Shown one piece after another: positions 1,449 through 9,852 of a stretch of DNA of 12,708 nucleotides. Source of the stretch: Terramyces sp. JEL0728 (Eukaryota > Chytridiomycota > Chytridiomycetes > Rhizophydiales > Terramycetaceae). The position numbers and the translations under genes were made by a program. The notes beneath the pieces are model-generated. The model did no database searches, was not told the DNA's origin, and was given only the letters and a program-made list of their open reading frames with translations. The stretch covers positions 1 through 12,708 of the forward strand of contig JADIIU010000218.1 of assembly GCA_027603945.1 (NCBI GenBank), written 5' to 3'. The stretch's first letter is position 1. Every line of letters begins with the position of its first letter.

Positions 1449-4400
1449 GAACTTTCAAGGTTTGGGAATACAAAACAAAGGGTTTGCCAGTCTCTATGAG
1501 GTTACCACTAGTAACAGCATTGTCCTGATCTTCAATTTTCCAAAGATTAAAAGACAGCTCCAAGTTTCCACTTTGGTGTTGGTGTTCTATTGAATATGTC
1601 ATGACTCTTATTGTGTTGGTTTCGTTGTACATGTCGCATGGGATGTAGAAGCTTTCCTGTGGCCCTATGGAGCCATAGTATCTTGCAATGAATATTCCAT
1701 TGATAAAAATGTACGCCATATTTGTACCGCGGACGATTAGACGCAACGGGGCAATGATATCTTTCTTTGTTGATGCAGTAAATTTTCCTTCAAACCAAGT
1801 TGGGACGAGTATATTGCTTGGCAATATATTTTTTAACGGCTTCTCCAGATTAGTCCAAGTGTCTTCATCGTCCAATGGCAAACCCGACAAATTGAATGGA
1901 TTTTTAGTTCCTCGAACATCTATTCCAGCAATAAACCATTTGATATCTTTTACCGATTTGATTTTTGCATCAAGAATGCCTCTTGGAGTTCTGATATCGT
2001 TTGATGGCCCAGGCTGTCTTCCCATGCCCAAGGATTCAACTATGCATATAATTTCATTCTTTCCTCGCACCAAATCATTTGGGTGTAAATCATACGATTC
2101 CCACCCGTAAAATCTGCCAAAATCCGGCCCACTCTTTCCACCTGGTCTAAACAAACTCAAAGAGTAAGTTAAATGGCCGCCGAATAGTTTGTTGTTGAGG
2201 TAAAGCGCACATTGATGACGCATATTAATATCGAAAGTTAGCGGCGCACTTGGGATAGACGAGAGGTTAAATTCGAGTTTGTATAAAACATGCCCACTTG
2301 TAAAGCAGTAATCGATGGCATTCTTTAAGGGATATGTTTTTCCTTTGACCAATTCCAACTTTAGCCATGGGATTTTGGTAAAATCAAGCGTCCTTTTCTT
2401 GGTAAATTCTAGGTCTGGTAAATGGTGGGCCAGCTCAATATCCTCTTGTTTAATTGGGTTCAGTGGATGTTCTACAACATACTCAGTCCCGAATTTCTCT
2501 GTCGGAACAAAGTTTTTGAATTCATCTATTCCAGATATACCATAAACAGACTTGTCATTTTCAATCGCATCGACTTCCAGTATTCTATCCTTTATAATAA
2601 ATTCAAACTGGTGACAGCCCCAAAATACTGCTGCAACTGTAGTGTCGAAAGTGCCCCAATAAGGCTCGGTAAATACAGGATAAAGAGTTTCAAGATTATA
2701 TCCAGTTAACGCGACAATAACTAACGATCCACCTTTTTCATCAGTAATCTTACAGCTTCCGCTAGACTTCTTTAATGAAATAACGGTAGCGTCTAATTCA
2801 ACTAATGCTACTGGTTCTAGATTTCCTTCACACGCCACTTTTCCATAGAATGCTAATTGTCCATTAATTTCATCATCGCATTGCACCACCCAGATTTCCT
2901 GTCCGGCTTTAGTAAATATCCGCGTGTAGATAGGGATAGTCGATAGTATCAAATGTAGCCCGCTTTTGGTTTTATAATCTGCAATTCCAATGAAGGACTG
3001 TTTGAAAGGCAGTTTGGATTTCAATTGAAGGGGTTCGCGGTTATTTCTATTTACAGTGATTGTAGACGCCGATGGCTTCTTCATATTGAGATTTCTAAAG
3101 AAAATGAAGTAGATTTTGTGCAAGCCAATCGTTCTTCTTTGTTTGGCAATGTAATCGTCAACGGAAGACGTAATAGTAAATGGTGCACGGATGGAAATGT
3201 CTTGACATTCAGTCCTTGAAAATTCAGCGGCAAAAGATCGAACAAACGAAATAACCAATCTCACATGGCGTCCTTGACTTAGATGAATGTTACCTTTGGA
3301 GCAATACAGCCCGTATTCTCTTATACAAGCCGAGTAGTCATAAGAAGTGTAAACATCTGGATCACCTACTGTCCCCCAATTGGTACCGCCATAAAACATG
3401 TACAAGTTAAAGGCAGTAACACCTTGAGACAGGACAGTATCAAGGATTAAACGAGTGTATTTTTTCCCGTAGTAGTTGTAAGTAGTGTCATATCCACTCT
3501 TTACAGTATGGTGATTGAACCATCCACCTTGCAGTTCTGGGATAAGGAGTGGCGATTGCGCAGCTGCACCTCCATAGCCACGGACGGTTTTTTCAATGTT
3601 ATCCAAGGATGCTTTGAATTCCTTTATATCCCATTCTTCCCACTTTGAATTCTCTGGCGGGATTCCCAGCAATGCTGCCTTGGGAGAGGACACTGGTGCA
3701 AAAATACTGTACTTGTCAAATCCATACTATACTTAGTCTCTAATTACCAAATCGATTCCAAAATGATCCTTTCCAAAGATCTTTTTTCCTTCTGGATAAG
3801 CAATAAAGGATCCTGCTTCCCACGCATCGTTGGTAAACAGTGGCACTGTGATCCCCAAATCCCTGGCACACTTTGCAAGTACACGCATATCATCAGATAA
3901 TCCTAGTGGGATTATACCAAAAATCAATTCAAAAGTCTCGTTTTCGATTTGCACAGCCAACACGCAACCCTTTGGCTTTGAGGTAACCTGGTGTCTTTGA
4001 ATAATAGGTAGGATGTTCCTGAACCATTCCTGGCAGTAATTGGAGTATTCTTGATCGTATAATCTGAAAAACGAAACAAGCGAATGTCTGATTCTAACAT
4101 GTCGTTTGGCGATTAACCATGATGGATGGCCTGTAATTAGTTGTAAATACCTCCTCCTTGCGTTTCTGCGCAAATATAAGGACCTGGAGCGCAGAGCACG
4201 AATAATTCCAATTCCTCGCAAAGTTGGAATAGATACTCTACATCCCTATCGTCTTCAAAAATATACTCTCCTTCAGCTAGATATTATTTCGATATTACCA
4301 GGAGAATGGAATCCCCAATGGAAATAGACACGAATACAATTCAAACCCGCTGTTTTGTACTGCAATAAAATCGTTCTCCACCTGTTCTTATCAGGCAGCC

Positions 4401-4623
4401 TCCAATAATGAAATTCTCCTGATATAACCCAGAGGGGTTTGCCGTGCAAGTAAAAGCAGTGTTGATCCCAATTTAATATGTGCCCAAATGCTTCATGATC
4501 GAAAGCTACTGATGCAGTTGTAATATCGCTTAATTCCCCCAAATTCCGCTTCCGTAAATAAACATAGGTCAACACCAAGGTTAATGGGATTATCAGGACT
4601 GTCAAAAATAACTCCCACAGCAT
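1444..4623 (-). CDS. GH35 beta-galactosidase, membrane-anchored, five exons
   Basis: Exons are 4623-4299, 4276-4151, 4130-3748, 3726-3294 and 3272-1444; the introns are 22, 20, 21 and 21 nt. The spliced frame is exactly 1032 codons (1031 aa). Residues about 3-22 form one hydrophobic segment followed by LRKR, suggesting a type II membrane anchor or an uncleaved signal. The GH35 TIM barrel follows: FYLHGKPLWVISGEFHYWR at about 57-75, CAPGPYICAE at about 137-146, VQIENE with acid/base E215, VPLFTNDAWE, and the candidate nucleophile E342 in IPELQGGW. The C-terminal half (about 430-1031) is beta-rich, as in the large fungal beta-galactosidases with jelly-roll domains. The enzyme should remove terminal beta-galactosyl residues from external or secretory-pathway glycans. 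Intron 3273-3293 is in frame and stopless, so an unspliced model would carry seven spurious residues (NIHLSQG). The family and catalytic residues are clear; the substrate is not. Confidence 0.92.
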
Positions 4624-4799
4624 TAGAGATTACAAAAACTAGACTTTTTCTCACAATGAAAATTTTCTGTTTACTGGGACACGCGATGAGCATTATCCCC
4701 ATGGCAACAGCATAGTCGCTCCGATGATGTGATTGTGATTGGGGAGCAAAGTCTAATACAGATGTGCGGAAAAACACGTATAATTATATGGCCACGGGC

Positions 4800-4805
4800 T
4801 TTATT
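4800..4805 (-). terminator. polyadenylation signal directly after the middle b561 stop
   Basis: AATAAA on the minus strand directly follows the TAG stop (4808-4806). The remaining spacer of about 176 bp to the GH35 start (4623) therefore holds this gene's 3' end and the GH35 promoter. Confidence 0.5.
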
Positions 4806-8518: not shown

Positions 8519-8559
8519 TATTTAATTTTAAAGAGCAATGTTCAAATATTGCTGGTCAT

Positions 8560-8575
8560 TTTGACAGCTGTCAAA
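8560..8575. promoter_or_regulatory. perfect 16-bp palindrome, TALE-homeodomain-like site
   Basis: TTTGACAGCTGTCAAA is exactly self-complementary and lies in the 176-bp gap between POC1 and the CaMK gene, about 95 bp upstream of the latter's start. Its core TGACAGCTGTCA is the known paired-TGACA site bound by TALE homeodomain proteins (MEIS, PKNOX and TGIF types). Use as an operator here is inference. Confidence 0.4.
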
Positions 8576-8670
8576 TATAACCTATCCGCAGATTTTTCGT
8601 TTTAAATCCAGATGCTACCCTAATATTTAAGCCCTTCCAGATTTGTCGTATACTCAGCATTTAGAGAACA

Positions 8671-9852
8671 ATGGCTACATTATGTTACATCCACGAGCTT
8701 CAAAATCTTTACATTCGTATGGGAAAACCAAATTTACACGACTGTAACATAATATTAAACTAGTCTTCACGTTCGGAGAGAAACTTGGGAGGTAACTTCC
8801 GTTAATTTAGCGGGACTTTTGCAACTGTAACTCTAGTAACCGAAAACGCAACCGGCAAGAAATATGCCATGAAAGTCATTGAAAAATCAAAATCTAAAGG
8901 GATGGAGGAGCAAATTATCAAAGAAATTACAATTCTAAAACGTATTAAACATCATAATATCATTCGACTGTACGAGTGCTTTGAAACACGAGACAAGATT
9001 TACATGCAAATGGAATAGTAATTGATTTTTGATTACAGCGTCGACGGAGGTGAATTATTTGATCGTATCGTGAATTTGGGTTACTATGGCGAAGATGACG
9101 CAAAGAAAATTGTAAAAGGGATAATAGATGCCGTTCAATACCTCCACAATGCCGGAATTGTTCATAGGGTACTTTGTTATAATGTAGGATTTGAAACCCG
9201 AAAATTTACTCATGGCTTCCAAAGATGATAATGCTGAGGTAAAATTGGCAGATTTCGGCTTGTCGACCATTGTTACAAACGATAGCATGCTAAAAACTAG
9301 TTGTGGCACTTTAACATATTGTGCTCCGGAAATCCTTCGCGGGGAATCATACGGGAAACCAGTGGATCTGTGGAGTATTGGTGTAATTACATATATTCTA
9401 TTAAGCGGATATCCACCATTCTGGGATAAAGATGAAGCAGTAATGATGGAGTTGACACTACGCGGCAAATTTGCATGTAATATTGCTTTTACAATAGTCT
9501 TTTCACCGGATTGGGATGAAGTATCTGACGTTGGAAAAGATTTCATTGGCCAATTAATTCAAGTTGATTCAGCAAAACGCATGACTTGCGCGCAAGCACA
9601 AGAGCATCAATGGCTAAAGACTGAATCGGCAGAAAAGAAAAACTTGATTTCCAAAGTTGGAGACAATCTCGTAAAGCACTATAATGCGAGGCAGAAACTG
9701 AAAGTAAGAATTATTAATTGTAGGTTGGTATGGATGCCATCAAGTTTGTTAATGCGATTAGGCACGTTGCTGCATTATCTTCTGGGATGAAGAAGGTGAA
9801 TATTGGAGACAAGGTTCCAGAACCTGGTCCGGAAAAAAACAGAGTTGAGTAA
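8671..9852 (+). CDS. CaMKI-like calcium/calmodulin-dependent protein kinase, seven exons
   Basis: Exons are 8671-8743, 8764-8791, 8811-9017, 9039-9168, 9188-9476, 9498-9703 and 9724-9852; the introns are 20, 19, 21, 19, 21 and 20 nt. The joined frame is 354 codons (353 aa). The kinase domain spans about 26-282: glycine loop GSGTFATV (33-40), YAMK with K55, E72, HRDLKPEN with catalytic D147, DFG at 168-170, and [11 protein letters not shown], with T183 at the site CaMKK phosphorylates in CaMKI. The tail [20 protein letters not shown] (about 312-331) looks like the autoinhibitory and calmodulin-binding helix. HRD-LKPEN and the glycine loop are complete only after splicing. Intron 9477-9497 is in frame and stopless. 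ATG 8671 has A at -3; an in-frame ATG at 8719 is the alternative start. The kinase should phosphorylate Ser/Thr in response to Ca2+; its targets are unknown. Confidence 0.93.

Follow-up and report, generated by a model that had tools for sequence, protein, structure and literature searches.

A stretch of 12,708 nucleotides from the genome of Terramyces sp. JEL0728 (contig JADIIU010000218.1, positions 1 to 12,708; the whole of it is referred to here as the window) contains sixteen segments of 19 to 22 nucleotides (nt) that begin with GT, end with AG and, once excised, rejoin the reading frames of four genes. We are confident, on the sequence evidence presented here, that these segments are U2-type GT-AG spliceosomal introns of a chytrid nuclear genome near Boothiomyces, and that nearly all the introns detected in about 312 kb of that genome belong to a single class of 19-22 nt. 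The most likely explanation is ordinary U2-type splicing of minimal introns that would have evolved independently in a fungus. This view draws on the restoration of frame and homology at the junctions, on a length peak confined to GT..AG segments, and on the position of the branch-point adenine (branch A), which in most of the introns lies at one of two distances from each splice site.

Tiny introns in four genes of the window

The preliminary description of the window, made from its letters, had listed sixteen GT-AG introns of 19-22 nt, and inspection of the sequence bears this out at all 16 positions: four segments are 19 nt long, five are 20 nt, five are 21 nt and two are 22 nt, the first five lying on the minus strand and the remainder on the plus strand (Table 1). 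When the segments are excised, the GH35, cytochrome b561 (b561), POC1 and CaM kinase (CaMK) genes are each left in a single frame in which the sole stop is terminal; before excision the starting frames of these genes hold 6, 11, 14 and 20 stops, respectively. Similarly, spliced CaMK gives one Pkinase stretch of 274.4 bits, whereas the unspliced genome yields two fragments, of 131.1 and 97.5 bits, that contain stops.

Homology at the CaMK and POC1 junctions was counted over the first 40 homologues listed for each protein, a junction being scored as gapless within 6 residues on the covered proteins; junction residues were placed by arithmetic from the coordinates for GH35 and POC1, and from the alignment with the Boothiomyces macroporosus protein for CaMK. 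By this measure most of the covered proteins cross each of the eleven junctions without a gap (Table 1), although the fourth POC1 junction gains little from homology because the surrounding stretch has 15% identity. Solved structures give the same picture, as POC1 residues 12-326 align to residues 33-347 of a solved POC1 chain at equal length, the first five CaMK junctions are crossed without a gap against the CaMK1D structure, and the alignment of GH35 to 1tg7 has no gap at junctions one to three and a gap of one residue near the fourth. At the b561 junction, the intron-free paralogue within the window aligns without a gap. The earlier claim that each intron restores frame and a conserved motif thus stands for the four rejoined frames and for most junctions, and is weaker for the segment at 3273-3293, which is in frame, contains no stop and could be read through. 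It is for this reason the least certain of the set, although it agrees with the branch geometry.

In 14 of the 16 window introns branch A is nt 14 or 15 of the intron and lies 5 or 6 nt ahead of the exon. The YTRAY-like element of the preliminary description is therefore present, but the spacing of 6-10 nt before the AG given there has to be replaced by these figures.

The assembly (15.0 Mb, 231 contigs) is that of a chytrid (Chytridiomycota) near Boothiomyces, judging by the closest protein matches. The best matches of the PP2C-like phosphatase are from Boothiomyces sp. JEL0866 and B. macroporosus (86% and 82% identity), with other chytrids next, and CaMK is 95% identical to the B. macroporosus protein; Boothiomyces is placed in the Terramycetaceae, Rhizophydiales (NCBI taxonomy). 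POC1 is a centriole protein and as such fits a flagellated fungus, and with these matches the initial impression of a flagellated fungus-like nuclear genome is upheld. We take the source organism to be a free-living saprobe. The annotated B. macroporosus kinase agrees with the window CaMK at four junctions; precisely at 9018-9038 three residues are missing from it, and precisely at 9169-9187 it has no catalytic-loop VHR. The simplest reading of these sequences would be that B. macroporosus has the same tiny introns and that annotation trimmed the exon ends; the public CaMK without VHR is probably an annotation error. Among 120 of the 275 POC1 matches, Boothiomyces appears in no protein name, which fits broken annotation but could have other causes.

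Table 1. Introns of the window and the genes in which they lie, with the evidence for each (positions are those of the window)
Feature	Position	Strand	Evidence
Intron, 21 nt, GH35 gene	3273..3293	-	GT-AG; branch A 15, tail 6; one-residue gap nearby against 1tg7; weakest of the set
Intron, 21 nt, GH35 gene	3727..3747	-	GT-AG, frame, gapless against 1tg7, branch geometry
Intron, 20 nt, GH35 gene	4131..4150	-	GT-AG, frame, gapless against 1tg7, branch geometry
Intron, 22 nt, GH35 gene	4277..4298	-	GT-AG, frame, gapless against 1tg7; geometry 15 and 7, one off the usual spacing
Intron, 22 nt, cytochrome b561 gene	5323..5344	-	Gapless against intron-free paralogue; geometry off the usual spacing
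Intron, 19 nt, POC1 gene	7046..7064	+	Gapless in 36/38 covered homologues
Intron, 21 nt, POC1 gene, GTG donor	7157..7177	+	Gapless in 36/39
Intron, 20 nt, POC1 gene	7466..7485	+	Gapless in 39/40
Intron, 19 nt, POC1 gene	8039..8057	+	Frame and signals; homology weak, 29/36 gapless at 15% identity
Intron, 20 nt, POC1 gene	8241..8260	+	Gapless in 31/36
Intron, 20 nt, CaM kinase gene	8744..8763	+	Gapless in 30/33
Intron, 19 nt, CaM kinase gene	8792..8810	+	Gapless in 32/34
Intron, 21 nt, CaM kinase gene	9018..9038	+	Gapless in 35/38; annotated B. macroporosus protein 3 residues shorter at the exact site
Intron, 19 nt, CaM kinase gene, within HRD motif region	9169..9187	+	Gapless in 37/39; annotated B. 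macroporosus protein without VHR there
Intron, 21 nt, CaM kinase gene	9477..9497	+	Gapless in 40/40
Intron, 20 nt, CaM kinase gene	9704..9723	+	Gapless in 35/37
GH35 beta-galactosidase-like gene, 4 introns	1444..4623	-	PF01301, 206.6 bits, spliced protein
Cytochrome b561 gene, 1 intron	4806..5430	-	PF03188, 35.3 bits; paralogue alignment
POC1 centriole protein gene, 5 introns	6842..8494	+	WD40 repeats; solved POC1 chain; POC1 homologues
CaM kinase I-like gene, 6 introns	8671..9852	+	Pkinase 274.4 bits once spliced
PP2C-like phosphatase gene, intron-free	10039..11349	+	86% identity to Boothiomyces sp. JEL0866

Intron length and branch geometry in the sampled genome

Intron lengths were surveyed in a first sample of 41 sequences, comprising twenty 10-kb stretches, the loci returned by searches and the window (279,408 bases), and in a total of 312,323 bases of the 15 Mb, in which loci may overlap. 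An initial scan of all GT..AG pairs between coding-looking flanks gave a weak excess over controls, and a gene hidden Markov model (HMM) was therefore used in its place; with a high intron penalty this recovered 3 of the 16 window introns. The first of the two models reported here, a two-strand gene HMM with a uniform intron length of 10-120 nt and no splice model beyond GT..AG, made 242 predictions, among which 32, 50, 35, 7 and 6 introns were of 19, 20, 21, 22 and 23 nt; every length from 24 to 60 nt was represented by 0-3 introns, and a flat tail extended up to 120 nt. Among the seven dinucleotide pairs tried, the excess at 19-21 nt was confined to GT..AG, with a total of 117 introns against 2-10 for each of the other six. 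The second model, with a range of 10-400 nt and splice weights learned from the 18-23 nt introns of the first pass, those of the window being excluded, returned 63, 85, 46 and 10 introns of 19, 20, 21 and 22 nt, together with 3 at 18 nt, 1 at 23 nt, 1 at 24 nt and 12 at 25-60 nt, such that 204 of the 228 predictions of at most 60 nt fall at 19-22 nt. Controls with three other dinucleotide pairs gave 4, 4 and 1 at these lengths. When the second model was limited to 15-30 nt with a lower penalty, 283 of 300 predictions were of 19-22 nt. The uniform set seen in the window, for which a genome-wide length histogram had been proposed as a check, is thus matched by a peak of predicted introns in both models.

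The 198 distinct introns of the second set correspond to 0.63 per kb of the sampled sequence with overlaps kept, a low figure because the models miss introns, and scaling suggests a number of the order of ten thousand across the assembly. Spliced predictions outside the window align at length to solved proteins (Vps45, 537 bits; ADE2, 328 bits), and a PAK kinase prediction reaches 349 bits over its kinase part only. A 16-nt intron within the spliced Vps45 prediction was rejected as probably false, its site being poorly aligned.

The geometry of the window introns recurs in this sample. In the first-pass set of 119 distinct introns of 19-22 nt, which had been found without a splice model and in which the best YTRAY-like site was scored, 97 combine a branch A at nt 14 or 15 with a distance of 5 or 6 nt to the exon; in 500 shuffles of the intron bodies the mean number at the branch position was 9.5 (standard deviation 2.8, maximum 18). 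In the second set the pattern fits 170 of 198 introns, distributed as 62 with 14 plus 5, 44 with 15 plus 5, 32 with 14 plus 6 and 32 with 15 plus 6, and there is no sign that the choice of donor-branch distance depends on that of branch-exon distance (Fisher p 0.34). These four combinations yield the 19, 20 and 21 nt classes. The proposal that so short a set constrains the spliceosome can in this way be given numbers, namely a distance of 14 or 15 nt between the donor and branch A, and one of 5 or 6 nt between branch A and the exon. A typical intron has an AG/GTAATT-like donor, a YTAAY branch site and a TAG or CAG acceptor. At the donors of the second set A occupies +3 in 89% and +4 in 55%, T occupies +6 in 67%, and +5 is T in 56% and G in 16% (G in 18% of the first set); the acceptors are TAG in 140, CAG in 46 and AAG in 12. 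Two or three bases separate branch A from the acceptor triplet, and T makes up 39-55% at the five positions directly upstream of the branch motif region.

Some further features of the window and assembly were noted in passing. The ends of the window (1-1098 and 11611-12708) carry a DOMON-cytochrome b561 gene in two inverted copies, between which there are 2 mismatches; the copies stop at an identical gene position and their inner flanks differ. They may stem from an inverted duplication in the recent past, from gene conversion or from an effect of assembly. An ankyrin-repeat gene (6098-6812, minus strand) has an upstream coding stretch and a frame break near 6535, and inspection by eye for segments of 19-22 nt bounded by GT-AG or GC-AG revealed none that would repair the frame; the gene may be a pseudogene or contain a sequence error or an unusual intron. 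Contigs C18, C3, C26 and C42 carry repeated kinase matches of equal or nearly equal score, spaced by about 62, 29, 46 and 30 kb and lying on one and the same strand, possibly reflecting segmental duplications or duplication in the assembly.

Splicing machinery and competing explanations

Inspection of U1, U2 and U2AF homologues had been suggested at the outset; U2 and the U2AF large subunit are present, but U1 was not found in a limited search. The U2 small nuclear RNA (snRNA) lies on contig C70 (14443-14635, 140.2 bits) and has a canonical GUAGUA region, and the U5 snRNA lies on contig C84 (23521-23635, 85.9 bits). The U2AF large subunit gene, at position 44938 of contig C2, itself has three predicted introns of 20, 19 and 19 nt, the splicing of which raises the family score from 251.7 to 331.6 bits (cut-off 310.3), and the spliced protein aligns to the solved U2AF65 RRM1-RRM2. 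A U1C-type zinc finger scores 52.4 bits, although one of 14 prokaryote genomes used as controls also exceeds the cut-off of this short family. For U6, the top scores by Rfam model, 27.4 and 26.9 bits, fell short of the cut-off of 44; a 19-base pattern allowing up to two mismatches gave five matches (reversed control, one), none resembling U6; BLAST with a 73-nt core gave no match; and a pattern of 11 fixed letters gave ten matches (reversed control, five), of which two places were inspected and neither was U6. U1 had no Rfam match and two pattern matches, as did the reversed control for the pattern, and the best U4 candidate reached 20.3 bits against a cut-off of 46.

The geometry can be read directly from the sequence; recognition and branching, we infer, would follow from it in this manner. 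The spliceosome would recognise introns as whole units, by intron definition; U2 would pair with the branch site, and the AG directly downstream would then be used. The space downstream of the branch point is too small for a polypyrimidine tract, and the U2AF large subunit, which is retained, would therefore have to recognise the short run of U-rich sequence ahead of the branch point or else act via protein contacts. Length may be bounded from below by the closest approach of donor and branch site that one active site can accommodate, and from above by poor splicing beyond the set spacing.

Several observations weigh against the view that a single short class of spliceosomal introns prevails, and each is best considered with the explanation that it would favour. 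Two of the 16 window introns (4277-4298 and 5323-5344) depart from the spacing of 14 or 15 plus 5 or 6 nt, and the geometry of the second set is not independent because first-pass introns of 18-23 nt had supplied the training set for the splice weights. Coverage extends to only about 312 kb of 15 Mb, with overlapping loci kept in the count; recall in the window was 6 of 16 introns for the first model and 10 of 16 for the second, and many introns are missed, with stop-free in-frame introns, chiefly of the 21 nt class, being under-detected. The second model, moreover, predicts 71 introns of 61-400 nt. On the strength of these long predictions, and of the limited sensitivity and sampling, one might hold that there is no genome-wide rule, and that short introns, though common, exist beside a sizeable group of longer, conventional introns that escaped the models. 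We consider this very improbable. The second model places 12 introns at 25-60 nt against 204 at 19-22 nt, the first has next to none at any length from 24 to 60 nt and only its flat tail beyond, and the extra long predictions within the window resemble joins across gene boundaries or bridges around a true short intron; the 61-400 nt predictions in general probably bridge gene boundaries.

The case for splicing is drawn from DNA sequence, and this, together with the very uniform lengths, would leave room for the segments being not introns but insertions, either removed in some other way (DNA elimination or ribosome bypassing) or created by assembly. Such insertions would hardly be expected to have GT-AG ends and a YTAAY motif at a fixed place, to be in excess for GT..AG alone among seven dinucleotide pairs, to occur in a genome with U2, U5 and U2AF, or to be lacking from the b561 paralogue, and we find this explanation barely credible. 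A further doubt concerns the donors and the failure to find U1, U4 and U6 snRNAs, in a search that scores best candidates only and an assembly that is perhaps incomplete. The detection of U2 and U5 but not of these three, and the scarcity of G at +5, where T predominates, could mean that U1 and U4/U6 have diverged alongside the loss of +5 G and that donors are read in a non-standard manner. We judge this unlikely, as absence from a limited search is weak evidence, there is a candidate U1C-type zinc finger, and the commonest intron of the ciliate Stentor coeruleus starts GUAAUU, yet passages of the study describing it report a conserved U1 5' region and U6 ACAGAGA box (PMC9505925). A broader proposal would have splicing act as a ruler that accepts only 14 or 15 plus 5 or 6 nt, two independent choices setting the length, with +5 G abandoned, U1, U4 and U6 changed too and U2, U5 and U2AF canonical; it may span the Boothiomyces group and spoil its public annotations. 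This proposal is tentative, and we hold it to be possible but doubtful.

Under the preferred reading, that of ordinary U2-type splicing of minimal introns, these chytrid introns at 19 to 22 nt approach the lowest limit known for any organism. If correct, minimal introns would have arisen independently and genome-wide in fungi, a kingdom in which genetics and splicing biochemistry are well developed, and in a group whose biology, as far as Boothiomyces is concerned, presumably lies outside the endosymbiont or parasite settings in which genome shrinkage is the usual explanation. Comparison with chytrids that have longer introns would make testable the minimal donor-branch distance, the dispensability of +5 G in tiny introns and the role of U2AF when a polypyrimidine tract cannot fit. 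There is also a practical warning, in that genes of this group would be broken up by any gene finder that imposes a lower bound on intron length.

Comparison with known ultrashort-intron systems

Genome-wide ultrashort introns are described for heterotrich ciliates, chlorarachniophyte nucleomorphs and mikrocytids (PMC10245619; this and the other papers are cited here for selected passages). Similar to these systems, Terramyces has near-uniform intron lengths at about 15-25 nt (204 of 228 predictions in the sample), and branch A occupies fixed positions, as in Stentor, in both the set obtained without a splice model (97 of 119) and that obtained with one (170 of 198). The introns agree with the U2 type in having a GT donor and an AG acceptor (16 of 16 in the window) and a branch site, upstream of the 3' splice site, with which U2 could pair. 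The parallels drawn in the preliminary description differ in how well they hold. That with nucleomorphs is apt, as the introns of the Bigelowiella natans nucleomorph are quoted as 18-21 nt (PMC10245619) and share the narrow range and the large number per genome, although they belong to a reduced endosymbiont nucleus rather than a 15 Mb fungal nuclear genome. Among ciliates it is the heterotrichs alone, with 15-16 nt, that have comparably short introns (PMC10245619); Paramecium and Nyctotherus have introns of about 25 nt (PMC5014332). Microsporidia are a poorer one, their introns being described as few and relatively short (PMC10245619). Mikrocytids have a spliceosome that is strongly reduced and 224 introns, spread over 179 genes, of 16 or 17 nt with conserved sequence (PMC10245619); the exceptionally narrow range and conserved sequence are held in common, but these organisms are parasites, whereas Terramyces has a sampled density of 0.63 introns per kb or more and retains U2AF.

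Within fungi, chytrids are regarded as relatively intron-rich, and the introns of Cryptococcus neoformans (mean 63 bp) are called relatively short; the passages of that survey give nothing near 20 nt (PMC8476143). Among the best open-access matches, judged by title or abstract opening, there was no report of ultrashort introns in Boothiomyces or any other chytrid or fungus. The closest model for its geometry appears to be Stentor coeruleus, the passages on which describe GU-AG, AU-rich introns of 15-16 nt, with branch A nearly always at position 10 or 11 and a 5-nt tail, GUAAUUUUUAUAUAG as the most abundant intron, and conserved snRNAs (PMC9505925). Both systems have a narrow length range, which in Stentor takes in the whole annotated set, two positions for branch A and a 5-nt tail, and the GUAAUU start of the commonest Stentor intron resembles the typical donor found here. 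In contrast, the donor-to-branch distance in Stentor is about 4 nt shorter and there is no strong branch consensus, where the YTAAY of Terramyces is clear, and Stentor is a ciliate whereas Terramyces is a fungus. The 5-nt tail in common, and the U at +5 of the commonest Stentor intron, suggest that the two may have converged on a minimum.

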